Source of the DNA: Sphingomonas sp. EC-HK361 | GTDB lineage: Bacteria > Pseudomonadota > Alphaproteobacteria > Sphingomonadales > Sphingomonadaceae | Length of the DNA stretch: 64,000 nucleotides | NCBI RefSeq assembly: GCF_902498785.1 | Contig: NZ_LR701494.1 | Coordinates: 434,001-498,000, forward strand | Direction: 5' to 3' | In this document: piece by piece, positions 21,043 through 42,422 of the stretch | Layout: the number at the start of each line of letters is the position of its first letter | Numbering within the stretch: position 1 is the stretch's first letter | The notes under the pieces: generated by a model | Databases searched by the model: none | What the model was told of the DNA's origin: nothing | Seen by the model: only the letters and a program-made list of their open reading frames with translations | Translations under genes and position numbers: made by a program

Positions 21043-21426
21043 TTATTCAGCCAAGCGTTCGATGATCGGACAATCAGGCCGATCATCGCCATGACAGGCT
21101 TGGGCGAGCCCGGTAAGCGAGCGGCGCATGGCGTCCAAGACGCGGACCTTGCGGCCCAGTTCGGCAGCGCGGGCTTCCGCCAGCGTCTTCACTTCCGCGC
21201 TCGACCGATCGCGATCCGACCACAGCCCCAGCAGCGTGCGGATTTCCTCGATCGGGAACCCCAGGTCGCGCGCGTTGGCGATAAATCGCAGCCGATGAAC
21301 GTCAGCGTCGGCGTAGTCCCGGTAGTTCCCGCGCCGTGGCGGCGCGGGCACCAAACCAATCTTTTCATAGTGGCGGATCATGCGTTGGGAGACGCCGCTG
21401 GCGTCCGACGCCGCTCCGATGTTCAC
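21043..21426 (-). CDS. cueR: Cu(I)-responsive MerR-family regulator CueR
   Basis: The 127-residue activator has the metal loop [13 protein letters not shown], with C111 and C119 matching C112 and C120 of E. coli CueR, which coordinate one Cu(I) linearly. Three or more cysteines, as in Hg or Zn sensors, are absent. The N-terminal winged helix is [21 protein letters not shown]. Translation begins at a GTG whose last two bases overlap the copper ATPase stop (GTGA). Regulator and target are therefore cotranscribed, and the operator lies upstream of the ATPase gene. Confidence 0.92.
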
Positions 21427-23897
21427 AGCTTTACCGCGTTGAGCCGCAGTGCGTTCAGGACCACGGTGAAGGACGAGAGCGCCATCGCTGCACCGGCCAG
21501 CATCGGCGACAGCAGGATACCGGCAACCGGGTAAAGCACGCCGGCCGCAACCGGCACGCCGATTCCGTTGAACAAGAACGAGAAGAACAGGTTTTGGCGG
21601 ATATTTCGCATCGTCGCGCGAGCGAGCTTGCGGGCGCGCACGATCGCCGAGAGATCGCCGCGCGTGAGCGTCATGCCGGCGCTTTCGATCGCCACGTCTG
21701 TTCCCGTTCCCATCGCCAAGCCGACATCCGCGGCGGCGAGCGCCGGGGCGTCGTTGATCCCATCGCCCGCCATTGCGACCCTTGCGCCGCTCGCTTTCAG
21801 CTCGCCGATGATACGCGCCTTGTCTTCCGGCAGCAGATCGGCGCGCACGTCATCAAGACCGCCCACGGCGCGCGCGACAGCATCGGCCGTCCCACGATTG
21901 TCGCCGGTGAGCATGACGACCCGCAGGCCCTCCTTGCGAAGCGCGGCAATAGCGTCGCGCGCCGATGCGCGCACCGGATCGGCGACTGCGAGCAGACCGG
22001 CGAGCGCCCCGTCGATCGCGACGAGGATGATGCCCGCGCCTTCGCCACGGTGACGATCGGCCGCGGCGTCGACCGGCTTGAGATCAGCGCCGATCCGGCT
22101 CATTTGCACCGCATTGCCAATCACGACCGAGCGGCCGCCCACCGTGGCGCTGACACCCAGCCCGGTTTGCGAGGCAAAGTCCGCGACTGTGCCGAGCTGC
22201 AATCCTCGTTCTTTGGCGGCAACGACGATTGCGTGCGCGAGCGGATGTTCGGATTGGCCTTCGACGGCCGCGGCAAGCGCGAGCATGTCGTTCTCTCCGA
22301 CCGCGCTGACCGTCTCGACCGCGATCAGCTTGGGCTTGCCTTCCGTGAGCGTACCCGTCTTGTCGATGACAAGGGTATCGACCTTTTCCAGCCCCTGTAA
22401 GGCTTCCGCGTTCTTCACCAGCACGCCGGCCTGAGCGCCGCGTCCCGTGCCGACCATGATCGACATGGGCGTGGCGAGCCCGAGCGCGCACGGGCAGGCG
22501 ATCACCAGCACTGCGATGGCGTTAAGCAGGGCATGGCCCATGCGCGGCTCAGGGCCGACCAGCGACCAAGTGATGAAGGTCGCAATCGAGATCAGCACGA
22601 CGAGCGGCACGAACCATCCTGAAACCCGATCGGCGACCGCCTGTATCGGGGCGCGGCTTCGCTGCGCTTCCGCGACCATGCGGACGATACGCGCGAGCAT
22701 CGTGTCCGAACCAACCGCGCGGGCTTCCATCACCAGGCTGCCCGTCCCGTTGACGGTGCCCCCGGTAACGATCGCCTCGACTTCCTTGAGGACCGGCGCG
22801 GGTTCGCCGGTGAGCATGGCTTCGTCGACCGACGAACGACCCTCGACCACGACGCCATCGACCGGGATGGCTTCACCGGGGCGGACCCGCAGCCGGTCAC
22901 CGGTTGCCACGTCGGCAAGCCCGACTTCTTCTTCAGAACCGTCAGGCTGCAAGCGTTGCGCCGTCTTGGGGGCGAGATCCATGAGAGCGCGGATCGCGCG
23001 CCCTGTCGCCGCCCTAGCGCGCAGTTCGAGCACTTGCCCGAGCAGCACCAGTGTCACCACGACGCCGGCCGCCTCGTAATAGACGGGAACCATGCTCCCA
23101 TGCGTGCGGAAGGTCGCTGGGAAGATGCCCGGCGCGAGCGTCGCGACCACGCTATAGAGGAAGGCGGCACCTACGCCGATCGCGATCAGTGTGAACATAT
23201 TGAGATGGCGGGTACGAAGCGATGTCCACCCCCGCTCGAAAAACGGCCAGCCCGCCCACAGCACGATCGGCGCGGTGAGTGCGAGCTGGACCCAAGGCGA
23301 GGCCGCAGGGCTAACCACATGCAGGCCTAACATTTCCGCGAACATCGAGACGACGAGCAGCGGGATCGTGAGCGCGCCCGCCACCCACAGTCGGCGCGTG
23401 AAGTCGACCAGCTCAGGGTTGGGAGTATCGTCGAGCGACGGTTCTTCGGGTTCGAGCGCCATGCCGCAGATTGGGCAAGTTCCCGGCCCTTCCTGGCGAA
23501 TTTGCGGGTGCATCGGGCACGTCCACATCGCCCCCGGCGTCGCCATCGGCTCCGGTTTCGGCTTATCGCTCAGATAGGCGTCAGGATTGGCGACAAACTT
23601 GCTCCGGCACCCTGCGCTACAGAAATGATAGGCATGACCAGCGTGCTCGGCATGGTGTGTCGTTTTTGCGGGATCGACCGTCATGCCGCACACCGCGTCG
23701 ATCACTGCTGCTGCGGCATCGTTGTCCTTACTGCCCGAGCAGCAGCCGCCCGCTTCGGTGTGATGATGTTCGTGCTCGATCTTTGCGGGAGCGGCCGAGC
23801 CGCCCCCGCAACAGGATGAGGGCGTGGAGACCGATTCAGGCGCAGGCTTCGAACAGCCGCAACCCCCGGCTTGGGAATGGGAATGAGGGTCGTTCAT
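21423..23897 (-). CDS. copA: Copper-exporting P1B-type ATPase with YHS and metal-binding N-terminus
   Basis: The 824-residue inner-membrane ATPase pumps Cu(I) out of the cytosol. Domains in order: a Cys/His-rich leader (CGCSK, SCCGGG, EHEHHH), a YHS domain (about 66-108, [12 protein letters not shown]), a heavy-metal-binding motif WTCPMHP with CPICGM (125-146), TGEP actuator (363-366), the CPC ion site ACPCALG (468-470), DKTGT phosphorylation site (512-516) and the [10 protein letters not shown] hinge. Classical CXXC HMA domains are absent. The ATG at 23897 follows an AAGGAG site and a CueR-type promoter. It is cotranscribed with cueR. Confidence 0.95.
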
Positions 23898-23921
23898 GGC
23901 AAGACTCCTTCGACCCGAGAG

Positions 23922-23952
23922 CATGTAGGGTATGACACCGTGTTAGGGTCAA
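23922..23952 (-). promoter_or_regulatory. CueR-type promoter of the copper ATPase-cueR operon
   Basis: Read leftward, TTGACC and TACATG are separated by 19 bp containing the near-palindrome TAACACGGTGTCA. The spacing and position, 25 bases before the ATPase start, fit a promoter activated by a MerR-family protein, here CueR encoded by the next gene. Confidence 0.75.
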
Positions 23953-24111
23953 GGCCCTGTCGGCACCGCTGGCGTGTATGTTGAATCTACGCGCGGGAGC
24001 GGCGTTGCCCTCATATTGCGGGGGCCAGCTCTACACCCTCGACGCCATAAGGGCCGCAGCTTAGGTCTATTACTAGCTCGCCAAACGCGGGCCGGGGGCA
24101 ATCGGGGACAT

Positions 24112-25438: not shown

Positions 25439-25463
25439 AGGGATGATCCGGAGAGCCGCGTAT
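25439..25463 (+). promoter_or_regulatory. ECF-type promoter, copy A (before DUF4396 gene)
   Basis: AGGGAT, 13 bp, GCGTAT. It is one of six promoters in this window with the same two elements at identical spacing. The start codon lies 26 bases downstream of the -10 element. Confidence 0.75.
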
Positions 25464-25489
25464 CCTCTAGCATGTAGAGGAGTGCTGCC

Positions 25490-26374
25490 GTGACGATGCC
25501 ATCCCCGGCCCCCTGGCTCGACGCCGTGCTGATCGGGTGGTTCGTGCTGACCGCCCTTTCGGTCGCTTACGTCGCGTGGGATGCCTTCACCCGCAACCCC
25601 GAGCTGCGCGTGATGAAATGGGGGTGGCTGTTGGTCACGCTCTATGGTGGCCCGATCATGGCCGCGGCCTATGTCCTGTCCTGCCAGGAGCCGGCGAACG
25701 AGCGGCACGAGGATTTCGTTCGACCGCTCTGGAAGCAGGCGTTCGGCTCGGCCATCCATTGCATGGCGGGCGATGCAACCGGCGTCATCGCCGCAGCCGC
25801 GATCACCACGGCGCTCGGCCTGCCGATGTGGCAGGACGTGATCGCGGAATATGTGTTCGGCTTCGCGTTCGGACTGCTGATTTTCCAGGCGCTTTTCATG
25901 CGCGACATGGCGGGCGGTTCCTATTGGGGCGCGCTTCGCATGTCGTTCATCCCCGAATGGCTGTCGATGAATGCCGTCATGGCCGGCATGATCCCGACGA
26001 TGGTGGTGTTGATGAGCCGCGACATGGCCGCGATGCACGCCAGCTCGCTCCGCTTTTGGGGCGTCATGTCGCTGGCGACACTCGTCGGGTTCGCAGTCGC
26101 CTATCCGATCAACCTTTGGCTGGTTGGCGTGCGCTTGAAGCACGGCATGGGCACGGTGCGCGCGCTGGGGCATGGCGGACACGAAGTCGGCGCGGACCGG
26201 CAATCGGCCACGCCGATGCCGGACATGGGACACGACGCAATGGCAGGGATGAGCGGCATGGCGGCCGGCGCGCGCGTGACCGGACCTCAGATCGCCGCGA
26301 TGACAGTGTTGACGCTCATCATGCTTGGCGCGGGCATCATCATTGCGACGCTGTTCGGTCGGTGGGCCATGTAA
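25490..26374 (+). CDS. DUF4396 membrane protein
   Basis: The 294-residue inner-membrane protein has about seven helices. Helix cores include AVLIGWFVLTALSVAYVAWDAF and LMLGAGIIIATLFGRW. It carries the DUF4396 pattern AGDATGVIAAAAI and a loop rich in His and Met (about 233-258: GHGGHEV, MPDMGHDAMAGMSGM). Met/His-rich loops of this type bind Cu(I) in copper-handling proteins, so a copper role is plausible. The GTG at 25490 follows AGAGGAG at seven bases; an ATG at 25496 is possible. A promoter of the ECF family described here lies directly upstream. Exact function is unknown. Confidence 0.8.
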   Translation: MTMPSPAPWLDAVLIGWFVLTALSVAYVAWDAFTRNPELRVMKWGWLLVTLYGGPIMAAAYVLSCQEPANERHEDFVRPLWKQAFGSAIHCMAGDATGVIAAAAITTALGLPMWQDVIAEYVFGFAFGLLIFQALFMRDMAGGSYWGALRMSFIPEWLSMNAVMAGMIPTMVVLMSRDMAAMHASSLRFWGVMSLATLVGFAVAYPINLWLVGVRLKHGMGTVRALGHGGHEVGADRQSATPMPDMGHDAMAGMSGMAAGARVTGPQIAAMTVLTLIMLGAGIIIATLFGRWAM

Positions 26375-26402
26375 CTTGCCGCGAACGACGGAGATCGCGG
26401 CA

Positions 26403-26427
26403 AGGGGTGATCGCGCGGCGCGCGTAT
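26403..26427 (+). promoter_or_regulatory. ECF-type promoter, copy B (before Csp-like gene)
   Basis: AGGGGT, 13 bp, GCGTAT, ending 36 bases before the ATG at 26464. It matches the other five promoters in element sequence and spacing. Confidence 0.75.
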
Positions 26428-26463
26428 CTAGGAACAGGCGGGGGCTCATACGGAGATAATGCG

Positions 26464-26796
26464 ATGCACCAGATCGACCCCGGCATGAAGGCGTGCATGG
26501 ACGCCTGCCACGAATGCCATGTGACCTGTCTTCACATGGCGATGAACCATTGCCTCGAAATGGGCGGCCAGCACGCCGCGCCCGAGCATATGAAGATCAT
26601 GGCCGACTGCGCGCAAATTTGCGCGGTTGCGATCGACTTCATGGCGCGCAAGTCCGCCCACCATCAGCATATCTGCCGCGAGTGTGCCGAGATCTGCCGG
26701 GTTTGCGCAGCGAGCTGCGAGGCCCTGGGCGGCATGGAGGATTGCGTGGCAGCGTGCCGGAAGTGCGCCGATTCCTGCGATCGGATGGCGGCATAG
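26464..26796 (+). CDS. Four-helix-bundle copper-binding protein (Csp/DUF326-like)
   Basis: The 110-residue protein has cysteines spaced along four predicted helices: CMDACHECHVTCLHM, HCLEMGG, CAQICAV, HICRECAEICRVCAASC, CVAACRKCADSC. This pattern fits the Csp/DUF326 copper-storage family, where Cys residues line the bundle core and bind many Cu(I) ions. There is no signal peptide, so a cytosolic Csp3-like location is likely. It has its own ECF-type promoter and faces fliQ across a GC hairpin. Copper buffering inside the cell is well supported by family; the number of ions bound is not known here. Confidence 0.88.
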   Translation: MHQIDPGMKACMDACHECHVTCLHMAMNHCLEMGGQHAAPEHMKIMADCAQICAVAIDFMARKSAHHQHICRECAEICRVCAASCEALGGMEDCVAACRKCADSCDRMAA

Positions 26797-26804
26797 CGGG
26801 GCTT

Positions 26805-26828
26805 GCGCGGGCGGTCGCCCGCCCGCGC
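26805..26828. terminator. GC hairpin between convergent genes
   Basis: A perfect 10-bp stem (GCGCGGGCGG / CCGCCCGCGC) with a TCGC loop lies in the 45-bp gap between the Csp-like gene and fliQ, which converge. No long T tract follows on either side, so it may act as a bidirectional but weak terminator. Confidence 0.5.
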
Positions 26829-26841
26829 AGCTATCTGCATA

Positions 26842-27111
26842 TCAACGGCCCATGCTCGCGATCACAGCGAACAGCTCGGCCGTGAACTTGGTCAGGAGCT
26901 CGGTCGCTGCGCTCCCGAAAATCACCAAACATACGCCTAGCGCGATCAGCTTAGGCACGAAGCTCAGCGTCTGTTCGCTAATCGACGTCGCCGCCTGGAT
27001 GATGCTGATTATCAGCCCGACGATCATCATCGGCACGAGCAGCACCACGCAGATCAGGCCGGCCACGGCCAGCATCCTCCCCGTCTCGTCGAGCAGGATC
27101 GACTGATCCAT
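26842..27111 (-). CDS. fliQ: FliQ-family export-apparatus protein, isolated copy
   Basis: The 89-residue membrane protein has two helices. It has the FliQ/SctS core VGLIISIIQAATSISEQTLSFVPKLIA, very close to GLIISILQAATQINEMTLSFIPKIIA of E. coli FliQ, and the same total length. FliQ is an inner-membrane component of the flagellar and type III export gate and normally works with FliP and FliR. Here it is the last gene of a copC-copD transcript and no other flagellar gene is in the window. Either it has been captured and lost its context, or it has been recruited to another function. Family identity is secure; function here is open. Confidence 0.88.
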   Translation of the reverse strand: MDQSILLDETGRMLAVAGLICVVLLVPMMIVGLIISIIQAATSISEQTLSFVPKLIALGVCLVIFGSAATELLTKFTAELFAVIASMGR

Positions 27112-27163
27112 CAGGCGCGGCCCCGTGAACGGCCGGGGACCGCGAGGGCTCCCCGGCCGCGCA

Positions 27164-28090
27164 TCACATCGCCGATGCAGGCGGCGCGAGCGTCCCGAGC
27201 CAGGCGATCAGCCCGAGAACCGCGATGACACAGGCGGTTTCGATCGCCAGACTTGTCCGCAGCGCGCCGAGGGCGCCCTTGTGATCGTCCGCTGCGATCG
27301 ACCGCTCGAATGCCGGCGTGAGCCGGAAGCGGTTGAGCGAGGCGAGCCCTAGCATGGCGACGAACAGCGCCAGCTTTGCGATCAGGAGCTGACCATAGAG
27401 CGTCGCAGGAAGCGTGGCGAGGTTGCCGATCCCGACCAGCATCCAGCCGTTGACCAGGCCGGTGACGAGGATCGTGCCGACCACAACCGTCCCGATCGCG
27501 CCGAACCCGTGCAGCGCGCGGTGCGTCAGCCCCAGATGCGCCGCGTCTACGCGCGCCGCGGGTCGGGAGACGAGCAGGAGCAGCCCCAGTAGTGCGCCAA
27601 CCCAAGCGCCCGAGGCGATCAGATGGAGAATGTCGACGATGAGGTGGACCCAGCCCATCACGGCTTCGTCCATCGCGCCGTGTCCGGTCCACGCCAGCGT
27701 TGCGAGTGCCACGGCCGAGCAGAGCGCGACGATGCTCAGCCAGATGCCGCGCCCGCCCGCGACCAGCGCTGCCAGCGCCGCGAGGGCCACCATGACCATG
27801 CGCAGCTTCCATGCTGCTCCGATCGCAGAGCCGGTGAGCAGCGCGCCGACTGCTTCACGGTCGATCGGCCAGGCCGGCGTTCCGGCCATTGAGGAGGCCA
27901 TCAGCACGACCCAGGCGCCTGAAAACAACAGGCTCAGGCCAGCGCTGGCGATGAACCAGGGACGCAGCGCGAGCGCGTCGCCGCGCTCGCGCGCCCGCAG
28001 CCCATAAAGGCTGAATGCGGCAAGGCCGAACAGCGCAGCCAGCGTCACGTAGAGCGCGAAGCGGACGCCGATAAGCGACCAGTCCCCCAT
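27164..28090 (-). CDS. copD: CopD-family copper resistance membrane protein
   Basis: The 308-residue inner-membrane protein has about eight helices, with the CopD domain in the second half (GAWVGALLGLLLLVSRP, THRALHGFGAIGTVVVGTILVTGLVNGWM). Conserved His residues lie in the helices (TGHGAMDEAVMGWVHLIVDILHLIASGAW). CopD works with periplasmic CopC in copper uptake or handling. It starts four bases after the copC stop and is driven by the leftward ECF-type promoter at 28499. fliQ follows in the same direction after a GC-rich gap with an inverted repeat. Confidence 0.9.
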   Translation of the reverse strand: MGDWSLIGVRFALYVTLAALFGLAAFSLYGLRARERGDALALRPWFIASAGLSLLFSGAWVVLMASSMAGTPAWPIDREAVGALLTGSAIGAAWKLRMVMVALAALAALVAGGRGIWLSIVALCSAVALATLAWTGHGAMDEAVMGWVHLIVDILHLIASGAWVGALLGLLLLVSRPAARVDAAHLGLTHRALHGFGAIGTVVVGTILVTGLVNGWMLVGIGNLATLPATLYGQLLIAKLALFVAMLGLASLNRFRLTPAFERSIAADDHKGALGALRTSLAIETACVIAVLGLIAWLGTLAPPASAM

Positions 28091-28094
28091 CGCC

Positions 28095-28463
28095 TCACTT
28101 CACCGCGAAGACGTAGGTTCCTGCGACCTTGTGGGTGTCGGTCGAGACGACATTCCACGCGACGCTATACCGACCCGATGGGAGCGGCGATTTCGGGGTG
28201 ATGACGAGGGTCCGGCCATCGGACGAGAGCGCGGAGGCGCTGGCCATCTTCATGGCTGCCATGCCGGGCATCGCTGCCATCGTGAGATCGGCCTTGGAGA
28301 AGGCTGGCATCAGCTTCTCGCTGAAATGAAGTTCGATACGAGCGGGCTTCGCGACCGTCGCATTGGCGGCCGGCGATGCCGACACCAGCTTAGGATGGGC
28401 GTTCGCCGTTCCGGCGAACATGACGAGAGCGGCAGCAGCAGTCAGAACGGATAGGCGGCGCAT
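28095..28463 (-). CDS. copC: Periplasmic copper-binding protein CopC
   Basis: The 122-residue secreted beta-barrel protein has a signal peptide ending TANA before HPKLVSASPAAN, so the mature protein starts with the His that forms the Cu(II) site in CopC. A Met-rich loop (TMAAMPGMAAMKM) could bind Cu(I), and the C-terminal SVVSTDTHKVAG-like segment supplies Asp and His ligands. The ATG at 28463 places the signal peptide correctly; an ATG at 28496 would overlap the promoter. It is the first gene of copC-copD-fliQ under the ECF-type promoter at 28499-28523. Confidence 0.9.
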   Translation of the reverse strand: MRRLSVLTAAAALVMFAGTANAHPKLVSASPAANATVAKPARIELHFSEKLMPAFSKADLTMAAMPGMAAMKMASASALSSDGRTLVITPKSPLPSGRYSVAWNVVSTDTHKVAGTYVFAVK

Positions 28464-28498
28464 AGGGGGCCTTTCGACAGGAGGGTTCCTGTCCTTCA

Positions 28499-28523
28499 TT
28501 ACGCGCCCCGATCGACCACCCCT
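28499..28523 (-). promoter_or_regulatory. ECF-type promoter, copy F (before copC)
   Basis: Read leftward: AGGGGT, 13 bp, GCGTAA. It points at copC, with 35 bases between the -10 element and the ATG. It lies back to back with copy C, which serves the regulator genes. Confidence 0.75.
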
Positions 28524-28537
28524 CACGGATGGATTTG

Positions 28538-28562
28538 AGGGATGGGCGCGTCGCTTGCGTAA
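28538..28562 (+). promoter_or_regulatory. ECF-type promoter, copy C (before the YXH regulator operon)
   Basis: AGGGAT, 13 bp, GCGTAA. The start codon of the anti-sigma-like gene is only 19 bases downstream. Because the sigma-factor gene is third in this operon, the promoter makes the system autoregulated. Confidence 0.78.
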
Positions 28563-28581
28563 TCCATGCTAGAGGGGTGGA

Positions 28582-28860
28582 GTGAACGACATGGACCTCG
28601 ACGCAGTATTGATGAGGCTGGCGCAAGCACCCGTGCCCGCGAGCCTTGATGGCATGGAAGATCGCGTGCTGGCGCGGGTCGCCGCACGTCCAGCGGCGCG
28701 CGCCGGCTTAGGCGTTGGGGCAATGACGATCGCTGCGGCGCTCGTCATGGGCATCTTCGGTGCCGGTGTGCCCGCGAAGGAAGCCAGCGCGGCTTCGCTA
28801 TCGCCCTTGGGGCCGGTGTCGCCGCTCGCGCCCTCCACGCTGCTCGTCGGCGTGCAATGA
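28582..28860 (+). CDS. CnrY-like membrane anti-sigma protein
   Basis: A 92-residue protein with a short cytosolic N-terminus (about 1-40, with LDAVLMRLAQAP and a helix MEDRVLARVAARP), one membrane helix (about 43-62) and a Ser/Pro-rich periplasmic tail. Size, topology and position match CnrY (95 aa) of the Cupriavidus cnrYXH unit. In that system the cytosolic segment sequesters the sigma factor and the periplasmic end contacts CnrX. Direct sequence similarity to CnrY is weak, so the call rests on topology and gene order. The GTG at 28582 follows AGAGG; an ATG at 28591 is possible. The stop overlaps the sensor gene start. Confidence 0.72.
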   Translation: MNDMDLDAVLMRLAQAPVPASLDGMEDRVLARVAARPAARAGLGVGAMTIAAALVMGIFGAGVPAKEASAASLSPLGPVSPLAPSTLLVGVQ

Positions 28861-29297
28861 GCGGCCGCATCCGCCTTCTGCTTGGCATTGTCGCGTGCTT
28901 CATCGCCGCGATCATCGGTGTGTTCGTGGGGCGGGCGCTACTTCCGCCACGTGCCCAGCCCGGCTCGGAGCTGCACGACGTGCTGCATCATAAGCTGGCG
29001 CTGGACGCCAACCAGGAAGCGCGACTTGAAGTGCTGGAGCAGCGTTTCGCCGTGCAGCGGCGCGCATTCGAGCTGGAATTGCGGGCGAACAATGCCCGGC
29101 TCGCTGAAGCGATCGAGGCCGAGCATGGCAACGGGCCGCGCGTCGCCGCAGCGGTCGACCAGAGCCACGCCGTCATGGGCGAGCTCCAGAAAGCGACGCT
29201 GGCGCACATCTTCGCCATGCGCCAGCTCTTGCGGCCCAATCAGACCGGCCAGTTCGATCAGGCCGTGGTGAAGGCGCTCACCGACGACGCACGTTGA
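28857..29297 (+). CDS. CnrX-like periplasmic metal sensor
   Basis: The 146-residue protein is anchored by one N-terminal helix (7-29) with a helical periplasmic domain of the Metal_resist/CnrX type. CnrX of Cupriavidus binds metal through H42, H46, E63, H119 and M123. Here the same residues occur shifted by exactly two: H40 and H44 (ELHDVLHHK), E61 (LEVLEQRF), H117 and M121 (LAHIFAMRQ). That is strong evidence for a working metal site. It should hold the anti-sigma protein until metal binds. It lies between the CnrY-like and ECF sigma genes with an ATGA overlap upstream. Which metal it senses here is unknown; the regulated genes are copper genes. Confidence 0.85.
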   Translation: MSGRIRLLLGIVACFIAAIIGVFVGRALLPPRAQPGSELHDVLHHKLALDANQEARLEVLEQRFAVQRRAFELELRANNARLAEAIEAEHGNGPRVAAAVDQSHAVMGELQKATLAHIFAMRQLLRPNQTGQFDQAVVKALTDDAR

Positions 29298-29307
29298 GGT
29301 TCGGCGC

Positions 29308-29877
29308 GTGAGCCTCGACTGGACCACGCTTACGGACGGCGAGCTGGCGACCCTCAGCATCGCCGGGCGCGAAGCCGCCTTCGCCGAGATCATGCGCCGC
29401 CATCGGCAGTCAATCTTCCGCATGGTGCGCGCGTGCGTCGGCGAGGCCGACGAGGCGCTGGACCTTCTGCAGGAGACCTTCGTCGCGGCGCATCAGGCCC
29501 TGCCCCGCTACGACGGCGATCGATCGATGCGCGCGTGGCTATCGACGATCGCGATCAACAAGTGCCGCGATTGGGGGCGCAAGCGCACCGTGCGGCGCTT
29601 TCTGGCGTTCGCCGCACCGATCGGCCCGGAAGCCGAAGCCATTGCAGACGACCAGGTGGCGATCGACGACGCGACGGGCGACCGACAGGAACTCGACCGC
29701 GTGACGCGCGCCATTGCGGGCTTGCCGACCGCATTGAAGGAATCCTTGGTGCTGCGCACGATCGAGGGGTTGAGCCAGGCTGAAACCGCGGCAGTGTTGT
29801 CGATCAGCGAAAAGGCGGTAGAAACCCGCCTCTATCGCGCGCGATCGAAGTTGCTGGAGCGATTGGGCGGGCGCTGA
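29308..29877 (+). CDS. CnrH-like ECF sigma factor
   Basis: The 189-residue RNA polymerase sigma factor has region 2 (about 24-92, FAEIMRRHRQSIFRMVRACV, DLLQETFVAAHQAL, RAWLSTIAINKCRDWGR) and region 4 (about 130-185, LKESLVLRTIEGLSQAETAAVL, KAVETRLYRARSKLLERL). Length and third position match CnrH (191 aa) of cnrYXH. It starts at a GTG at 29308. The final A of its stop codon is the first base of the promoter for the multicopper oxidase gene. It is the best candidate to recognise the AGGG(A/G)T-N13-GCGTA promoters around it. Confidence 0.9.
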   Translation: MSLDWTTLTDGELATLSIAGREAAFAEIMRRHRQSIFRMVRACVGEADEALDLLQETFVAAHQALPRYDGDRSMRAWLSTIAINKCRDWGRKRTVRRFLAFAAPIGPEAEAIADDQVAIDDATGDRQELDRVTRAIAGLPTALKESLVLRTIEGLSQAETAAVLSISEKAVETRLYRARSKLLERLGGR

Positions 29878-29901
29878 GGGATAGCGCCCTGAGCTGCGTA
29901 T
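29877..29901 (+). promoter_or_regulatory. ECF-type promoter, copy D (before copA-copB)
   Basis: AGGGAT, 13 bp, GCGTAT. The -35 element begins in the sigma-gene stop codon. The promoter serves the copA, copB, cytochrome c and PepSY genes that follow. Confidence 0.77.
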
Positions 29902-29944
29902 CAAGGCTAGAGGGACACTCCCGTTCGAGAGCCTTGAGGACCGT

Positions 29945-31978
29945 ATGAGCCGCACTATCGATCGCCGCCAGATGCTTCGCGGCGCCGCCCTTGCTGGCGG
30001 TGGCATGGCGCTGACCGCCTATATGCCCGCGTGGGCGCAGCCTGTCTCGGGCGGGATCGTCAAACCGCTGCCGACCGTCTCGGGCACTGACATCGCGCTG
30101 ACGATCGACAGTTTCAGACTTCCCGTCGACGGCAAGTCGACGCCCGCAATCGGCGTCAACGGCACGGTGCCGGCCCCTCTCATTCGCTTGAAGGAGGGGC
30201 AAAAGGTCCGCCTCTCCGTCACCAACAATCTCGACGAGGACAGTTCGATCCACTGGCATGGGCTGCTCGTGCCGTTCGCGATGGACGGCGTGCCCGGCAT
30301 CAGCTTCCCCGGCATCAAGGCGCGCTCGACCTTCATCTACGAGTTCCCGATCATCCAGTCGGGCACCTACTGGTATCACAGCCATTCCGGCGAGCAGGAG
30401 CAGGGCGGACTTTACGGGCCGATCGTGATCGACCCGGCCGGTGCCGATCCGATCGCGTTCGACCGCGAGCATGTGATCGTGCTGTCCGACCACAGCCAGA
30501 TGACCGGCGAGCAGATTTTCCGGAAGCTGAAGCAGATGGGCGGCGCCTATTTCAACTATCAGCGGCCGACCCTCGCGGGCTTGCTCGCGGGTCGGGAAAT
30601 GCCGCTCAAGGACCGGATCGAGTGGGGAAAGATGCGAATGGACCCCGCCGACATCGCCGACGTCACCGGCTCGACCTATACCTTCCTGGTCAACGGCTAC
30701 GGGCCGTATGACAACTGGACGGGGCTGTTCAAGCCGGGCGAGCGGGTCCGCTTGCGGATCATCAACGCCGCGGCGCAGACCAACTTCAACGTCCGCATCC
30801 CCGACCTGCCGATGACCGTCGTGCAGGCCGATGGGCAGAATGTCCGTCCGGTGAAGATCGACGAGTTCCAGATCGGCGTTGCCGAGACGTTCGACGTGAT
30901 CGTGACGCCCGAGGACCGGGCCTACAGCTTCGTCTCCGAGGCTATCGATCGCTCCGGCATGGGCCGGGCGACGCTCGCCCCGCGTGAGGGGATGGTCGCC
31001 CCGGTCCCGCCGCTTCGTCCGCGCACGCTGCTGACCATGACCGATATGGGCATGGACATGGGGAGCATGGGCGGGATGCAGGGCATGTCCGGCATGAAGG
31101 ACGAGAGCCCGGTCGCCACGCGCGGGCCGGACCCCACCTTGATGCAGAACGCCTCGCGCAATCTTTGGAAGCTGACGGGCTGGAAGGGGCCGACCGATCA
31201 CGGGACGGTCGCGGCAGGCGCAGCGATGGCGGGCATGTCCGGCATGTCGGGCATGGACCACAGCCAGATGGGCGGCGCTGTAATGCCCGGGATGGACCAT
31301 AGCCAAATGGCAGCGGGCGGTGCTGGCATGGCCGGCATGGACCATAGTGCCATGTCGGGCGGATCGGGCCAGGCTGGCGGCATGGCCGGGATGGACCACG
31401 GGTCGGGTGGCGGCATGAACATGAACATGCGCGACCCGAAGAATGCGCCGGGCGTGAAGATGGGGCCGGGCGTGCAGACCATCTCCCCGATGCCGAAGGA
31501 CCGTAGCGGTGAACCGCCCCAGGGTCTGGAGGGCCTGGATCACCGCGTCCTCACCTATCGCGACCTCGTTTCGCTCGCGCCCAACCCCGACGTGCGCGCG
31601 CCGTCGCGTCAGTTCGAGATCCATCTGACCGGTAACATGGAGCGCTACATGTGGGGCTTCGACGGGCAGAAGCTGAGCGATCCCGCCGACCCCATCCCGT
31701 TCCGCAAAGGCGAGCGGGCGCGGGTGACGTTGGTCAACGATACGATGATGCCGCACCCCATCCATCTCCACGGCCATTTCTTCGAGCTGGTGACGGGGCA
31801 CGGCAATCATGCGCCGCGCAAGCACACCGTCAACGTGCCGCCTGGAGGCAAGATGACCTTTGATCTGACCGCCGATGCACCCGGCGATTGGGCGTTCCAC
31901 TGTCACAATCTCTACCACATGACCGCAGGCATGATGCGCGTCGTCACCGTTCGCCCGTTCGCGGGAGAGGCGGCATGA
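29945..31978 (+). CDS. copA: Periplasmic multicopper oxidase CopA (copper resistance)
   Basis: The 677-residue protein has a Tat signal (DRRQMLRGAALAGGG), so it is exported folded with copper. Three cupredoxin domains carry the copper ligands: SSIHWHGLLVPF and YWYHSHSGEQ in domain 1, and HPIHLHGHFFELV and WAFHCHNLYHMTAGMM at the C-terminus, giving the type 1 and trinuclear sites. A Met/His-rich segment between about 360 and 510 repeats MGSM, MSGMD and MAGMDHS, the hallmark of PcoA/CopA proteins that bind extra copper and oxidise Cu(I). It is coupled to copB by an ATGA overlap and has its own ECF-type promoter. Confidence 0.95.
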   Translation: MSRTIDRRQMLRGAALAGGGMALTAYMPAWAQPVSGGIVKPLPTVSGTDIALTIDSFRLPVDGKSTPAIGVNGTVPAPLIRLKEGQKVRLSVTNNLDEDSSIHWHGLLVPFAMDGVPGISFPGIKARSTFIYEFPIIQSGTYWYHSHSGEQEQGGLYGPIVIDPAGADPIAFDREHVIVLSDHSQMTGEQIFRKLKQMGGAYFNYQRPTLAGLLAGREMPLKDRIEWGKMRMDPADIADVTGSTYTFLVNGYGPYDNWTGLFKPGERVRLRIINAAAQTNFNVRIPDLPMTVVQADGQNVRPVKIDEFQIGVAETFDVIVTPEDRAYSFVSEAIDRSGMGRATLAPREGMVAPVPPLRPRTLLTMTDMGMDMGSMGGMQGMSGMKDESPVATRGPDPTLMQNASRNLWKLTGWKGPTDHGTVAAGAAMAGMSGMSGMDHSQMGGAVMPGMDHSQMAAGGAGMAGMDHSAMSGGSGQAGGMAGMDHGSGGGMNMNMRDPKNAPGVKMGPGVQTISPMPKDRSGEPPQGLEGLDHRVLTYRDLVSLAPNPDVRAPSRQFEIHLTGNMERYMWGFDGQKLSDPADPIPFRKGERARVTLVNDTMMPHPIHLHGHFFELVTGHGNHAPRKHTVNVPPGGKMTFDLTADAPGDWAFHCHNLYHMTAGMMRVVTVRPFAGEAA

Positions 31979-33267
31979 ACCGGCTGACCGCGGCGCTCGC
32001 CGCCACCACCATGCTCGGCATCGCCGGTCCTGTCGCCGCTCAGTCGATGCAGGGCATGGATCATTCGGCAATGCCGGGCATGACCATGCCGATGCCTGCG
32101 AAAAAGAAGCCGGTGGTGAAGCCCACGGCCAAAGGCAAGCCGGCCAAGACTAGGTCAGCTCCTGCGAGGCGACCATCAGCTTCGACGACGAAACGCCGCG
32201 CCGCGCCAACGGCCGGCATGAATGGTATGGATCACGGGACCATGCCGGGCATGGATCACTCGTCTATGCCCGGCATGGACCATGCGGCTCCGCAGGGCTC
32301 ACAGCAGGGCATGGAAGCCATGCCGGGGATGCAGATGCCCGGAAACGGCCAAACGGTCCCTCAGGGCTCCCAGCAGCCGATGCAGGGCATGGACCATTCG
32401 GCGATGCCGGGGATGACCATGCCAGCCGACCAGCACAGCGGCCACGACATGCAGGGCATGTCGGGAATGGCCGGAATGCCAGGCATGGCGGCCGATGGGG
32501 TGCAGCAGACTGGCACCGCGCTTCCCGCAGGAAACGCCCCCGCCCCGCCCCTGCCGACCGACCATGCGGCCGACAGCGTTTACGGCGCGGACGCGATGGC
32601 GATGGGTCGCCATCACCTTCAGCAGCATCACGGCGGTCAAAACTTCAGCCAGGTGCTATTGAACCTCGCTGAGTATCAATTCCGCAACGGTCGTGACGGC
32701 TATCGCTGGGATGGCGAGGCGTGGTTCGGGGGTGACATCAACCGCCTCTTCATCAAGTCTGAGGGCGAGGGAGCCTTCCGCGAGGGCATCGAGAGCGCCG
32801 AGGTGCAGGCGCTCTATAGCCGGACCATTGGCCCTTATTTCAATCTACAAGCGGGTGTCCGCCAAGATTTGGGGCCGTCCCCGAAACGCACCTATGCGAC
32901 CGTCGGGCTGGAGGGGCTGGCACCGGGCTTCTTCGAGCTAGAGGGCGCGGTATTCCTGTCCAACAAGGGCGACCTGCTAGGGCGGCTTGAGGGCTATTAC
33001 GACCAGCGCATCACCCAGCGGCTGATCCTGCAACCGCGCGCCGAGCTCAATTTCGCTGCGCAGGACGTGCCGGAAAACCGGATCGGATCGGGCCTATCCA
33101 ACGCCGAGCTTGGATTGCGGCTGCGTTATGAGATCCGGCGCGAGTTCGCCCCCTATGTCGGCGTGTCATGGGATCGCCGCTTCGGCGACACCGCCCGCTA
33201 CGCGCGCGCCGATGGGGATCGCGCAACGTCCAAGAGCATCGTCGCCGGCGTTCGTGTCTGGTTCTGA
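31975..33267 (+). CDS. copB: Outer-membrane copper resistance protein CopB
   Basis: The 430-residue protein has a signal peptide (LAATTMLGIAGPVAAQ). An N-terminal half of about 180 residues is full of Met/His repeats (GMDHSAMPGMTM, GMDHGTMPGMDHS), with a Lys/Arg-rich stretch near 42-72. A C-terminal CopB/PcoB beta-barrel domain follows (about 205-430, ending RVWF). PcoB-type barrels are thought to move or bind copper at the outer membrane. The repeat block is unusually long and resembles the insert in the preceding CopA. It is cotranscribed with copA, cytochrome c and PepSY genes. Confidence 0.93.
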   Translation: MNRLTAALAATTMLGIAGPVAAQSMQGMDHSAMPGMTMPMPAKKKPVVKPTAKGKPAKTRSAPARRPSASTTKRRAAPTAGMNGMDHGTMPGMDHSSMPGMDHAAPQGSQQGMEAMPGMQMPGNGQTVPQGSQQPMQGMDHSAMPGMTMPADQHSGHDMQGMSGMAGMPGMAADGVQQTGTALPAGNAPAPPLPTDHAADSVYGADAMAMGRHHLQQHHGGQNFSQVLLNLAEYQFRNGRDGYRWDGEAWFGGDINRLFIKSEGEGAFREGIESAEVQALYSRTIGPYFNLQAGVRQDLGPSPKRTYATVGLEGLAPGFFELEGAVFLSNKGDLLGRLEGYYDQRITQRLILQPRAELNFAAQDVPENRIGSGLSNAELGLRLRYEIRREFAPYVGVSWDRRFGDTARYARADGDRATSKSIVAGVRVWF

Positions 33268-33282
33268 TCGTTGGAGGAACAG

Positions 33283-33867
33283 ATGGCTCAAGACGGCAGG
33301 CGCTCGATAAGGCAGCACTTCCCGAGCCTGCCGTTCGTAGGCGCCCTGGCGATCGTCCTGGCGCTGGGCGCAGCCGCGTTTATCTACCTTGGCGTGTATA
33401 ACATCGCGGCCGACGAACCGCACACGCCGGCGGTCTATTCAATGCTCGAACGCCTGCGCGATCGGTCGATTGAGGCACGCGCGCGCGGCATAACACCCCC
33501 GGCCGATCTGGCATCGGCGCAGCGCGTGTCAGTCGGCGCGGGCCTTTACGGAGAAGTGTGTTCCGGTTGCCATCTCGGCCCCGGCGTCGAGAAATCCGAG
33601 ATGAGCCAGGGCCTCTATCCACAGGCGCCGGAACTCGCGCGCGCTCAAGATCTCACCCCCGCCCAGCAATTCTGGATCATCAAGCACGGGGTGAAGCTCA
33701 GCGCCATGCCGGCATGGGGCAAGACGCATCCCGACCCCCTAATTTGGAATATGGTCGCGTTCGTCCGCAAGCTCCCCGGCATGACGCCCGAACAGTATAA
33801 GGCACTGGTCGCGAGCGCCCCGGCCGATCACGACGAGATGATGAAGGACATGCCGGGTATGAAGTGA
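33283..33867 (+). CDS. Membrane-anchored mono-heme cytochrome c
   Basis: The 194-residue protein has one N-terminal membrane helix (about 19-41, FVGALAIVLALGAAAFIYLGV), a periplasmic c-type domain with heme site CSGCH, and a likely axial Met in LSAMPAWG. The tail ends in MMKDMPGMK, a short Met-rich copper-binding-like end. The ATG at 33283 follows GGAGGAAC. It lies between copB and a PepSY gene. It may accept electrons from the multicopper oxidase reaction or help recycle copper; this is inferred from position only. Confidence 0.85.
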   Translation: MAQDGRRSIRQHFPSLPFVGALAIVLALGAAAFIYLGVYNIAADEPHTPAVYSMLERLRDRSIEARARGITPPADLASAQRVSVGAGLYGEVCSGCHLGPGVEKSEMSQGLYPQAPELARAQDLTPAQQFWIIKHGVKLSAMPAWGKTHPDPLIWNMVAFVRKLPGMTPEQYKALVASAPADHDEMMKDMPGMK

Positions 33868-33892
33868 CCCCGGCGACGAGGTTGAGGGAGGA

Positions 33893-34630
33893 GTGGTTCT
33901 GAAAAGCGCGAAACTGAGGCTGCATCTACTCGCGAGCCGCACGCACAAATGGCTCGCGATCATCATCGGCGCGCAGCTCCTGCTATGGTTCGCAAGCGGC
34001 GCCCTGATGAGCTTCCTGCCGATCGATCGGGTGCATGGCGATCACCTCGTTGACCGCAAAGCCGCGGCGCCCCTTCCCCGCGGCAGCACGTTCGCCCCAC
34101 CATCGGCGATCGTAGGCGCAGCAGATGCGCCCATCGAGGCCATCACCTATCGCATGTGGCTTGGCCGCCCGGTCGCCGAGGTCGCGACAGCCAAGGGAAC
34201 GCGCCTGTTCGACGCCGCGACGGGCCAAGCGCTGCCAGCACCAACGGCTCGTGAGGCCGAGGAGATCGCGCGTTTGGCATGGCGTGGCGGTGCTCGACCA
34301 GCGGCGAAGGTAGAGCGGATCGAGCGCGCCAGCCCCGAATATCGCGGCACGCTCCCCGCCTGGCGCGTCGCGTTCGCCGACCTCGATTCCACCCGCGTCT
34401 TTGTCGCGGCCGACACCGGTCGGATCTCGGCTGTCCGAACCGGCACTTGGCGGCTCTACGACTTCTTCTGGGGCCTTCACATCATGGATTGGACGAATCA
34501 CGAGAACTTCAACACGCCCTGGCTGCTCGCCTTCGCGATCGGTGGGCTTGCGCTTTGGTTAGGGGGGGCAGTGCTTCTCTACATGCGATGGCCCAAAACG
34601 CGGCGTCGCAACATCGTGATCGAGGCATAA
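33893..34630 (+). CDS. PepSY-domain membrane protein
   Basis: The 245-residue protein has an N-terminal membrane helix (WLAIIIGAQLLLWFASGALMSF), a periplasmic PepSY-like region and a C-terminal helix pair (WLLAFAIGGLALWLGGAVLLYM). It has the HKWLAIIIGAQ and GLHIMDWTNHENFNT signatures of PepSY-TM proteins, which are often linked to iron or copper reduction at the membrane. The GTG at 33893 follows GAGGGAGGA; no ATG is suitably placed. It is the last gene of the copA-copB transcript. Redox partner or chaperone function is a guess. Confidence 0.8.
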   Translation: MVLKSAKLRLHLLASRTHKWLAIIIGAQLLLWFASGALMSFLPIDRVHGDHLVDRKAAAPLPRGSTFAPPSAIVGAADAPIEAITYRMWLGRPVAEVATAKGTRLFDAATGQALPAPTAREAEEIARLAWRGGARPAAKVERIERASPEYRGTLPAWRVAFADLDSTRVFVAADTGRISAVRTGTWRLYDFFWGLHIMDWTNHENFNTPWLLAFAIGGLALWLGGAVLLYMRWPKTRRRNIVIEA

Positions 34631-34711
34631 TATACGCGGCTCAGGAGCGTAGCCCTCGGAAATAAAGTCCTGTTTCCTGACAATTTCTCGCGCGTTCTAG
34701 CACCCCGGGTG

Positions 34712-34736
34712 AGGGATAGCCGCCTCGCACGCGTAG
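34712..34736 (+). promoter_or_regulatory. ECF-type promoter, copy E (before DUF305 gene)
   Basis: AGGGAT, 13 bp, GCGTAG, 27 bases before the ATG of the DUF305 gene. It has the same elements and spacing as copies A-D and F. Confidence 0.75.
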
Positions 34737-34763: not shown

Positions 34764-35156
34764 ATGCGCTTCGCACCAACATTCGCAGCTTTGGCGCTGC
34801 TCGCCACGCCCGCCCTCGCGCAGCAGAGCGGCGGAATGCAGGGCATGAACCACGGTCAGATGGCCGGCATGAACCACGACGACATGGCGGGCATGATGGC
34901 CGGCAATCCCTACGGCCAGGCCGAGATGGACATGCATCAGAAGATGATGGCGGCCAAGCAGGGCGACGCGGCCGAAATGTGGACGCGCAAGATGATCGAG
35001 CATCACCGAGGCGCCATCGCCATGTCGCGCGTTGCGGTGCGTGACGCGCGCGACGCCGAGACCAAGCGCATGGCGCAGATGACGATCACGAAACAGGAAA
35101 AGGATATTGCCGAGCTGCAGGCGTGGCTCAGCAAGCACGGCAAGCGCCCGCAATAA
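34764..35156 (+). CDS. DUF305 exported Met/His-rich protein
   Basis: The 130-residue protein has a signal peptide cleaved near PALAQ, then a Met/His/Asn-rich segment (QGMNHGQMAGMNHDDMAGMM) and the DUF305 four-helix core (MIEHHRGAIAMSRVAVRDA, MTITKQEKDIAELQAWL). DUF305 is a ferritin-like fold frequent beside copper genes; the HH pair could bind metal. It is monocistronic with its own ECF-type promoter and a strong terminator. It probably acts as a periplasmic copper-binding protein, by composition. A second DUF305 gene at 57323 is controlled by a different promoter. Confidence 0.88.
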   Translation: MRFAPTFAALALLATPALAQQSGGMQGMNHGQMAGMNHDDMAGMMAGNPYGQAEMDMHQKMMAAKQGDAAEMWTRKMIEHHRGAIAMSRVAVRDARDAETKRMAQMTITKQEKDIAELQAWLSKHGKRPQ

Positions 35157-35206: not shown

Positions 35207-35227
35207 ATTTCCTTTTAGGAGCTGATG

Positions 35228-35677
35228 ATGAAGAATGGTGTTCGTGGCGCCGTCGCCGCCTTGCTAATGACCATCCCAGCGGTCGCATCGGCCGCGGCCG
35301 ACATCGCCATGCACCGCGATCCGGGTTGCGGCTGTTGCGAGAAATGGGCGGCGCAGGTGCGTCAGCAGTTCGGCCGCAAGGTCCAGATCATCGACGATGA
35401 TCGCCGTGAGGTGCTGCAGCGTAAGATCGGCCTGCCCGCTGACCTCGCGTCCTGCCATACCGCGATCATCGACGGCATGGCGTTTGAGGGACATGTCCCG
35501 ATCGCGGACATGAAGCGCGCGCTGGCCCAGCATCCTAAAGGCGTGCGCGGCTTGGCCGTGGCCGGAATGCCGATGGGCTCACCGGGCATGGAGGTGCCCG
35601 GCATGAGAACCCAGCCCTATGACGTCATTGCGTTCGGTGCCGCTGGCCGGCGTGTCTTTGCTAGCCACGGCGCCTAA
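35228..35677 (+). CDS. DUF411 exported metal-binding protein
   Basis: About 149 residues with a signal peptide (AAVAALLMTIPAVASA) and the DUF411 core: HRDPGCGCCEKWAAQV, with a CGCC metal site, then LPADLASCHTAIIDGMAFEGHVP. A Met-rich end segment (AGMPMGSPGMEVPGM) is typical of the copper-linked members. The ATG at 35228 is six bases after AGGAG; the adjacent ATG at 35225 is equally possible in frame. It lies after a terminator, so it needs its own promoter, which I could not identify. A periplasmic copper-binding role is likely. Confidence 0.87.
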   Translation: MKNGVRGAVAALLMTIPAVASAAADIAMHRDPGCGCCEKWAAQVRQQFGRKVQIIDDDRREVLQRKIGLPADLASCHTAIIDGMAFEGHVPIADMKRALAQHPKGVRGLAVAGMPMGSPGMEVPGMRTQPYDVIAFGAAGRRVFASHGA

Positions 35678-36562: not shown

Positions 36563-37792
36563 ATGCGCGCATCCATGATGCTCGCGGTCGCCGCGCTCAC
36601 GACGAGCGCCGCGCACGCGCAGACACTTACCTATGACCAAGCGCTGCGCGATGCGGTTGCCAACGCCCCGGGAGCGGTTGCCGGTCGCGCGGGGGTCAGC
36701 GCCGCCCAAGCCGATGCACGTGCGGCGGGAAGCCTTCCGGACCCCCGTGTGTCGATCGGAATCGAGAATTATCCTGTCTCTGGGCCACCCGCCTTCTCCC
36801 TATCCAGAGACGACATGACGATGGGGCGTGTCGGTTTCCAACAGGACCTACCCAACCTTGCCAAGCGTCATGCCGCGCAAGCGCAGGCACGCGCCGTGAT
36901 CGCAACGGCAGAAGCATCGCAAGCGACCAAGCTCCGGGAGGTGCGATTGGGAGCGGGGCAGGCATGGATCGACCTTGCTTATGCCGAGCGTCGACTAGCT
37001 GCCCTCGACACCGTTCTGCTATTCCTTCGATCTCTCCCTTCCGCTGCGCGGGCCGCCGTGACGACCGGTTCGGTCCGCCCTGGTCAGACACTGACGACCG
37101 ATCAGGAGATCGCGGCACTCGACGACCGCCGCGACGAGTTGATGGCCGCCGTTGCGCGCGCCCGCGCGATGCTGGCTCGCTGGACCGGCGTATCGGCGCC
37201 CGAGATTGCCGGCGATATGCCCGCGATCGATCTGGCTCCGGCGCGGCTGCGGGACGCGCTCAGCCTTCACTCCGACATGGTTCTCGCCGAGGCCGGTATT
37301 CAGCGCGCCCAGGCCGACGTGGATGCGGCGCGAGCGGAGAAGCGACCCGATTGGGGGGTAGAGGTAGCTTATCAACGCCGTGACCCCCGGTATGGCGACA
37401 TGGTGTCGGCGGGAGTTTCGATGAGCCTGCCGCTGTTCGCTCGATCGCGTCAGAACCCGCGCATCGAAGCCCGCAAATCCGCACAGGCGCAGGCCGAGGC
37501 CGCGCGCGAAGAAACCCGGCGCACATTGGCAGCCGATCTGGAGGCCGCGCTGGCGGACCACCAAATGCATCACAGCCAATGGCAGCGCGCGCGCGACGTG
37601 CTCCTTCCGCTCGCTCGGAAGCGAGCCGATCTGGAGATAGCGAGCTACTCTGCCGGTCGCGCGAGTCTTGCGGATGCCATCGAAGCCAAGACCGCGCTCG
37701 CCGACGCCGAGCTGACCGTGCTCGACCGTGAGGCGCTCGTCGCCGCAGACTCTGTCCGCCTCACCATTACCTTCGGGAGCGCCGATCGATGA
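36563..37792 (+). CDS. cusC: CusC-like outer-membrane efflux protein (TolC family)
   Basis: The 409-residue outer-membrane factor is the first gene of a Cu/Ag RND exporter. A signal peptide ending AHAQ is followed by OEP repeats: YDQALRDAVANAPGAVAGRAG, PDPRVSIGIENYPVSGPPAF and, in the second half, VSMSLPLFARSRQNPRIEARK. There is no lipobox cysteine, unlike E. coli CusC. Its sequence is clearly different from the two CzcC proteins of region 1, which agrees with the copper-type pump encoded downstream. The stop overlaps the adaptor start as ATGA. Confidence 0.88.
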   Translation: MRASMMLAVAALTTSAAHAQTLTYDQALRDAVANAPGAVAGRAGVSAAQADARAAGSLPDPRVSIGIENYPVSGPPAFSLSRDDMTMGRVGFQQDLPNLAKRHAAQAQARAVIATAEASQATKLREVRLGAGQAWIDLAYAERRLAALDTVLLFLRSLPSAARAAVTTGSVRPGQTLTTDQEIAALDDRRDELMAAVARARAMLARWTGVSAPEIAGDMPAIDLAPARLRDALSLHSDMVLAEAGIQRAQADVDAARAEKRPDWGVEVAYQRRDPRYGDMVSAGVSMSLPLFARSRQNPRIEARKSAQAQAEAAREETRRTLAADLEAALADHQMHHSQWQRARDVLLPLARKRADLEIASYSAGRASLADAIEAKTALADAELTVLDREALVAADSVRLTITFGSADR

Positions 37793-42200: not shown

Positions 42201-42422
42201 CTGTTGCGGGTACGTCCCAAGGCGATGACCGTCGCTGTCATCGTCGCCGGGCTGTTCCCCGTGCTGATCGGGCATGGCGCCGGATCGGAGGTGATGAGCC
42301 GGATCGCCGCGCCGATGATCGGTGGAATGCTGACCGCCCCTTTCCTCTCCATGTTCATCCTGCCAGCCGCCTACTTGCTCTTGCGGCGGCGAGCTTCAAC
42401 CCGCCCCGAAAGGAAGATCTGA
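39285..42422 (+). CDS. cusA: CusA-type copper/silver RND efflux pump
   Basis: The 1045-residue inner-membrane pump expels Cu(I)/Ag(I) in exchange for protons. It has the CusA-specific fourth-helix motif [24 protein letters not shown], versus DFGLIVDGAV in the CzcA here. Typical CusA segments include [40 protein letters not shown] and [20 protein letters not shown], the last containing a Met expected at the substrate relay. Length matches the family (about 1045). It sits between cusB and cusF with overlapping stops and starts. Confidence 0.95.

Follow-up and report, generated by a model that had tools for sequence, protein, structure and literature searches.

How might a large set of copper genes, spread over several operons on both strands, be placed under one control? 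The question is raised by a locus of Sphingomonas sp. EC-HK361, found in a stretch of 64,000 nucleotides (nt) that we refer to as the window (assembly GCF_902498785.1, contig NZ_LR701494.1, positions 434,001 to 498,000, forward strand). Amid the copper genes lies a three-gene operon, Y-X-H, encoding a putative membrane anti-sigma factor (Y), a periplasmic metal sensor (X) and an extracytoplasmic function (ECF) sigma factor (H). An earlier note on this DNA had proposed that promoters sharing AGGG(A/G)T-N13-GCGTA, six in number, make up a single self-wired ECF regulon for copper. Following this up, we consider it highly probable that the locus holds an autoregulated ECF sigma regulon, in which metal acting via X and Y would free H and H would drive the shared promoters of the copper genes. 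The Y-X-H system is very likely real as a regulon; its tuning to copper is put forward as a hypothesis.

Promoter-like sites in the window

All six AGGGRT-N13-GCGTA sites are present as exact matches, against 0.03 expected from dinucleotide shuffles, none of 100 of which reached six, so that the number is indeed very unlikely to arise by chance. Since a form of the pattern with two mismatches occurs 24 times in the window against 24.03 expected, which is chance level, only the exact or weighted form is informative, and exact matches and matrix scores were used. Exact matches found in other loci, with 13 near-identical island copies excluded, served to train the weight matrix; as the training sites all fit the pattern of the earlier note, the matrix is biased towards it. 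On random window segments it scores -15.1 on average, with -0.6 as the highest of 3000, while the six sites score 26.0 to 33.1. The matrix scan adds two weaker sites, at 34633 (18.8) and 23988 (9.2), both on the minus strand, and no further one scoring at least 5.

The relatives examined comprise the best 80 of 285 sigma relatives kept from a genome collection (63–99 % identical, 1.22 Mb in total, 13 of them the near-identical island copies; called close loci below), 18 further loci of the genus (sigma identity 50–90 %, 16 of them 50–64 %), 20 loci of the order and 151 genomes of the genus; in the wider samples a matrix score of at least 8 was counted as a site. Upstream regions, each running from 250 nt ahead of a gene to 40 nt into it and counted once where identical, were scored in the window, the 80 close loci, the 18 further genus loci and 24 others. 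The sites of the window are as follows, with the share of distinct upstream regions bearing a site.

25439 to 25462, plus strand: exact site (AGGGAT-N13-GCGTA), putative ECF promoter of the DUF4396 gene at 25490-26374; 7 of 8 DUF4396 upstream regions
26403 to 26426, plus strand: exact site, putative ECF promoter of the Csp3-type gene at 26464-26796; 27 of 29 csp upstream regions
28500 to 28523, minus strand: exact site, putative ECF promoter of the copC-copD-fliQ-like operon (28463 down to 26842); 70 of 73 copC upstream regions
28538 to 28561, plus strand: exact site, putative ECF promoter of the Y-X-H operon itself (autoregulation); 57 of 65 Y upstream regions
29877 to 29900, plus strand: exact site, putative ECF promoter of the copA-copB-cytochrome c-PepSY operon; 85 of 92 copA upstream regions
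34712 to 34735, plus strand: exact site, putative ECF promoter of DUF305-DUF411; 44 of 48 DUF305 upstream regions
34633 to 34656, minus strand: weaker divergent site (AGGGCT, matrix score 18.8), facing the 3' end of the PepSY gene
23988 to 24011, minus strand: degenerate ECF-type site (TGAGGGCAA...GCGTAG, matrix score 9.1-9.2), about 63 nt ahead of the copper ATPase gene

The downstream genes are those named in the earlier note, which had also recognised that one site precedes the sigma operon. Two details needed correction, namely the minus-strand site, previously placed at 28499, and the start of copC. The start listed for the latter, a GTG at 28526, lies upstream of the gene's own promoter, so that the true start is probably the ATG at 28463 (MRRLSVLTA...). 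The promoters at 28500 and 28538 stand back to back, with 14 bp between their -35 elements. Among the distinct upstream regions of the ATPase gene, 11 of 32 score at least 8, mostly with a variant -35.

The site at 34633 was considered as a conserved antisense promoter and rejected: its counterpart is exact in L020 and L024 and scores 10.1 in L034, the other lineages listed score negative, and the downstream gene looks different in L020. The interval from this site to the DUF305 promoter (34633-34735) holds a block GAAATAAAGT...GTTTC that contains an imperfect inverted repeat. Of the 30 DUF305 upstream rows listed, 5 have the string GAAATAAA, namely those whose minus-strand site scores at least 10. 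The sigma gene and the copA promoter overlap, and the promoter includes a 7-bp inverted repeat, GGGCGCT...AGCGCCC (29869-29889), that spans the sigma stop codon.

The element and the sigma gene among relatives

The 80 close loci contain 279 exact motifs and a single match to the reversed pattern. The spacer of 13 nt, described as fixed in the earlier note, holds up well, with all other spacings from 8 to 21 yielding 3 matches in total. For 272 of the 279 motifs a recognisable gene of the locus follows within 900 nt (7 lack one), namely Y in 70 cases, copC in 63, copA in 52, DUF305 in 49, csp in 22, DUF4396 in 15 and the ATPase in 1. Distances to the gene are short and steady for Y (21–25 nt), csp (36–39) and copA (36–49); some DUF305 rows lie at about 690–720 nt, and there a different gene intervenes first. 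Genes internal to operons mostly have no site (PepSY 0 of 48, DUF411 1 of 52, cytochrome 2 of 22, czcC-like 0 of 23, fliQ-like 1 of 14). The motif thus sits ahead of operon-leading copper genes and of the sigma operon, and rarely ahead of internal genes. After removal of duplicates, 151 distinct 54-nt contexts are left, giving the extended motif [TC][GA]AGGGRT-N12-[CT]GCGTA.

The matrix scan of related genomes suggested in the earlier note leads further out. Every one of the 18 further genus loci carries sites (70, against 1 in reversed sequence), as do 18 of the 20 loci of the order (46 against 1), including some whose sigma factor is only 34–40 % identical. In the order, 58 of 196 genomes have a match to X, and the 20 loci were drawn from these; copA has a match in 16 of them. 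In L153 and L162 the -10 element reads TCGTA.

Across the 151 genomes of the genus, the motif follows the sigma gene. Exact matches amount to 6.28 per genome in the 43 genomes with a sigma factor at least 69 % identical (none without a motif), to 2.89 in 55 genomes with a more distant or partial one (4 without; this group includes G080, whose match is a 99 % identical fragment), and to 0.68 in 53 genomes without a sigma match at E 1e-20 or better (32 without), whereas the reversed pattern stays flat at 2.72, 2.58 and 2.38. A copA match is present in all 98 sigma-bearing genomes and in 22 of the 53 others. In the 13 of these 22 that were fetched, no copA upstream region has a site, the best scores of -8.7 to -23.3 lying within the random range, and none was found in the whole 2.6-kb stretches around these genes. 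Second copA copies chosen from sigma-bearing genomes likewise showed no site (6 of 6). In G060, by contrast, copA is absent from the fetched Y-X-H stretch; the gene lies on another contig and bears a site scoring 20.4, 43 nt before its start, which suggests action in trans. Altogether, the motif behaves as would be expected of a promoter served by the linked ECF sigma factor.

The earlier note had named random genome positions as an outcome that would speak against a regulon. The nearest genome (G001) has 8 exact matches, of which 6 fall in this locus. The other two, on C13 and C20, lie in a dnaE2-like open reading frame (ORF) and, with no clear target, beside an ssb-like gene (both named from reading translations); they were taken as chance and not as regulon members. 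Among the matches listed, the ssb-side motif of G001 (L008 620-643) is seen again in G084 and, altered at one position, in G139; all three genomes bear the sigma gene, and no obvious target gene was seen.

Sensor, inducing metal and rival explanations

Among solved structures, H is nearest to CnrH (4cxf, E 1.4e-29; next 1.7e-14) and X to NccX/CnrX (E about 5e-21), the latter two belonging to the nickel-cobalt systems NccYXH and CnrYXH, with CnrYXH from Cupriavidus metallidurans. The gene order Y-X-H is common to both, and so is the placing of promoters, one ahead of Y and another directly behind H, seen here in the sites before Y and before copA, usually the next gene after H. On pMOL28 we read, by eye, GGGGGA-N13-CCGTA upstream of cnrY and GGGGAA-N13-CCGTA upstream of cnrC, which shares with our element the course from a GGG block to a CGTA block over a 13-nt spacer and is consistent with starts mapped 24 and 25 nt before the genes, as given in the accessible text of PMC9045368. 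The two systems differ in the promoter itself (AGGGRT/GCGTA here, GGGGRA/CCGTA there), in a Y that has no detectable CnrY profile match and in their targets: the site-bearing genes of the window are copper genes (copABCD, csp3, DUF305, with a cus-type set downstream), where CnrH controls the nickel/cobalt efflux genes cnrCBAT. Judged by its sequence, the locus is a CnrYXH-type system wired to copper genes.

At several positions the sensor X differs from CnrX and NccX. H42, H46, E63, H119 and M123, which we take to be the nickel ligands of CnrX in this numbering, are invariant in 67 of 67 distinct X sequences and in 20 of 20 more distant ones. In addition, the 67 carry His106 (67), Met109 (66), His92 (66) and, as a feature of the close set, His47 (57); at these positions CnrX shows E, A, P and E, and NccX E, A and P at the first three; the 20 more distant sequences all have His106 and Met109, 13 have His92 and none has His47. 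The His106/Met109 pair is a candidate for the change that tunes the CnrX fold to copper. Caution is advised, as the pair also occurs in four loci without copA and may mark a branch and not a metal.

Several observations weigh against a copper regulon run by H. The 53 sigma-less genomes hold 36 motif matches, a number that is low but not zero. No site scoring at least 8 is present in two of the 20 order-level loci (L155, L159), and four, from a second family (L153, L154, L161, L162), have no copA match; L162 does match copC, copD and a copper ATPase and L154 DUF411, but L153 and L161 show no clear copper gene by the reference set used. Y has no Pfam match and no profile match to CnrY (hhalign probability 0.4 %), its likeness consisting of position, length and an apparent single transmembrane segment seen by eye. 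The matrix does not recognise the cnrY and cnrC promoters (-15.4 and -14.1), their likeness being by eye only. Finally, X keeps the full nickel-ligand set of CnrX, which would allow nickel, or more than one metal, to act as inducer.

The last point leads to the most serious rival, in which Y-X-H senses nickel, cobalt or several divalent metals like CnrYXH, the copper genes being part of a general periplasmic metal response. Besides the ligand positions, it can draw on the occurrence of Y-X-H without copA in the four distant loci, some with a czcC-like gene, and on Sphingobium sp. ba1, where according to the accessible text of PMC5557971 nickel raised CopA, CopB and CopC transcripts in RNA-seq; this would fit a sensor still answering to nickel, if these ba1 genes carry the shared promoter. 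Against it stand the recognised targets, which are copper genes in the large majority of loci examined, the membership of the Csp3 copper-storage gene in the regulon and the His106/Met109 pair, absent from CnrX and NccX. We regard this explanation as rather unlikely, yet the inducer may be other than copper alone. The earlier proposal is supported, its wiring being strongly backed by the co-occurrence of motif and sigma gene, the operon-leading positions and the 13 site-free copA genes of sigma-less genomes.

Far less probable is that the element is the binding site of another copper regulator of the CopR or CueR type. Such systems usually run copper genes and a cueR gene is nearby, but two blocks with no dyad symmetry by eye, a fixed orientation, a mostly short and steady distance to the start codon, and a distribution that tracks the sigma gene down to its lack before copA in the fetched sigma-less genomes, all argue for an ECF promoter, and the explanation was set aside. 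That the spacing reflects shared ancestry alone, one promoter being copied with a mobile island under no continuing sigma selection, is hardly credible and was likewise discarded: five Sphingomonas plasmids share a 9.8-kb island at 99.8–99.9 % identity, and near-copies of it make up 13 of the 80 close loci, but the sites precede genes that are not homologous to one another, differ in their spacers, come in 151 distinct contexts, occur in loci with sigma factors 34–66 % identical and are missing before copA where the sigma gene is missing.

Known copper regulators can be compared with this system. CopRS/CusRS and CueR control the same classes of target gene, but as two-component or MerR-type systems and not as sigma factors; CueR is present here beside the ATPase. 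CorE of Myxococcus is likewise an ECF sigma factor linked to copper genes, governed, in the accessible text of PMC10141476, by its own Cys-rich C-terminal extension with no anti-sigma factor; H, with 189 aa, ends shortly after region 4 (130-182) and adjoins the Y-X pair, so that a CorE-type sigma factor was rejected. SigAb of Acinetobacter baumannii, as described in the accessible text of PMC12153292, is a copper-induced ECF sigma factor for which a model gives anti-sigma binding of the CnrY kind; its copper regulon is mainly indirect, the sigma gene is followed by those for its anti-sigma factors, and that portion mentions no CnrX-type periplasmic sensor. In the open-licence literature we found no description of a copper Y-X-H system in sphingomonads, which does not imply its absence from all print.

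In the regulon we propose, Y, apparently a single-pass membrane protein, would keep H inactive until the periplasmic metal-binding domain of X senses excess metal, most likely copper, upon which Y would release H. RNA polymerase with H would then start at promoters of the extended motif, those of its own yxh operon, copAB-cytochrome-PepSY, copCD-fliQ, DUF305-DUF411, csp3 and DUF4396, and to a weaker degree at that of the ATPase. Cytosolic Cu(I) would fall to CueR, encoded next to the ATPase, each sensor then serving its own compartment.

Gene content and meaning for sphingomonads

The genes assigned in and around the proposed regulon are the following.

21043 to 21426, minus strand: CueR, downstream of the ATPase (TIGR02044, 150.1 bits, cut-off 147.4)
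21423 to 23924, minus strand: copper-translocating P-type ATPase (TIGR01511, 571.6 bits, cut-off 397)
25490 to 26374, plus strand: DUF4396 membrane protein (PF14342, 2e-36)
26464 to 26796, plus strand: Csp3-type copper-storage protein (RkCSP3 6zif, E 1.2e-26)
26842 to 27111, minus strand: FliQ-like paralogue, third gene of the copCD operon (PF01313, 4.4e-21)
27164 to 28090, minus strand: copD (NF033808, 277.3 bits, cut-off 195)
28095 to 28463, minus strand: copC, start corrected by reading (NF033814, 127.6 bits, cut-off 95, scanned as ORF 28095-28526)
28582 to 28860, plus strand: Y, 92-aa putative membrane anti-sigma factor, CnrY-like in layout only (by eye from the alignment)
28857 to 29297, plus strand: X, periplasmic metal sensor, CnrX/NccX relative (PF13801, 3.8e-17; NccX 4clv, 4.5e-21)
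29308 to 29877, plus strand: H, ECF sigma factor of 189 aa, CnrH relative
29945 to 31978, plus strand: copA, multicopper oxidase (TIGR01480, 765.7 bits, cut-off 478.95)
31975 to 33267, plus strand: copB (PF05275, 3.2e-88)
33283 to 33867, plus strand: cytochrome c-like protein (weak ccoP-type matches)
33893 to 34630, plus strand: PepSY-associated transmembrane protein (PF03929, 4.4e-8)
34764 to 35156, plus strand: DUF305 protein, CopM-like (PF03713, 4.9e-12; CopM NF049983, 61.7 bits, below the cut-off of 90)
35225 to 35677, plus strand: DUF411 protein (PF04214, 5.4e-23)
36563 to 42748, plus strand: efflux set of the cusCBA type, in which CusB bears a CusF domain and CusF is also encoded separately, after DUF305-DUF411 on the same strand

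From DUF305-DUF411 to 42748 the genes are closely spaced on one strand, with no matrix site between them and terminator-like matches at chance level, and the cusCBA-F set may be read from the promoter at 34712. FliQ-like genes follow copD also in L079, L083, L085, L086, L101 and L102; in L092 the gene is separate from copD and has its own matrix site at 7467 on the minus strand. In the five genomes searched, the FliQ-like gene of the copper locus is an extra copy alongside at least one other FliQ.

The locus is also found on plasmids. In all four annotated plasmid loci, Y-X-H is followed by copA and copB. In G142 (L101 16403-18901), the ATPase is 100 % identical to that of the window, and the cop, Y-X-H, csp, DUF4396, cytochrome, PepSY and FliQ-like genes are 75–92 % identical, a contrast that we read as a sign of recent recombination within the island.

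The order comprises bacteria used in bioremediation. A metal-sensing switch of the nickel type seems here to have been turned to copper resistance. If the proposed regulon holds true, it would add a copper-responsive ECF system with defined promoter, sensor and candidate anti-sigma factor that is portable on plasmids and spread across the order. It would also offer an experiment of nature in fitting the same sensor fold to another metal, with His106 and Met109 changed and the known ligands left as they are, and the promoter, being specific and rare in sigma-less genomes, could serve as a metal-inducible part. More tentatively, and somewhat short of what we would call probable, sphingomonads and their kin may have converted a CnrYXH surface switch of the nickel type to exclusive use for copper through a second His/Met feature (His106, Met109, often His92) with the rest of the CnrX site unchanged, and may then have brought their periplasmic copper defence, together with a copper-storage protein and a recruited FliQ paralogue, under a single sigma factor carried by mobile DNA, an arrangement that perhaps replaces the customary two-component system.

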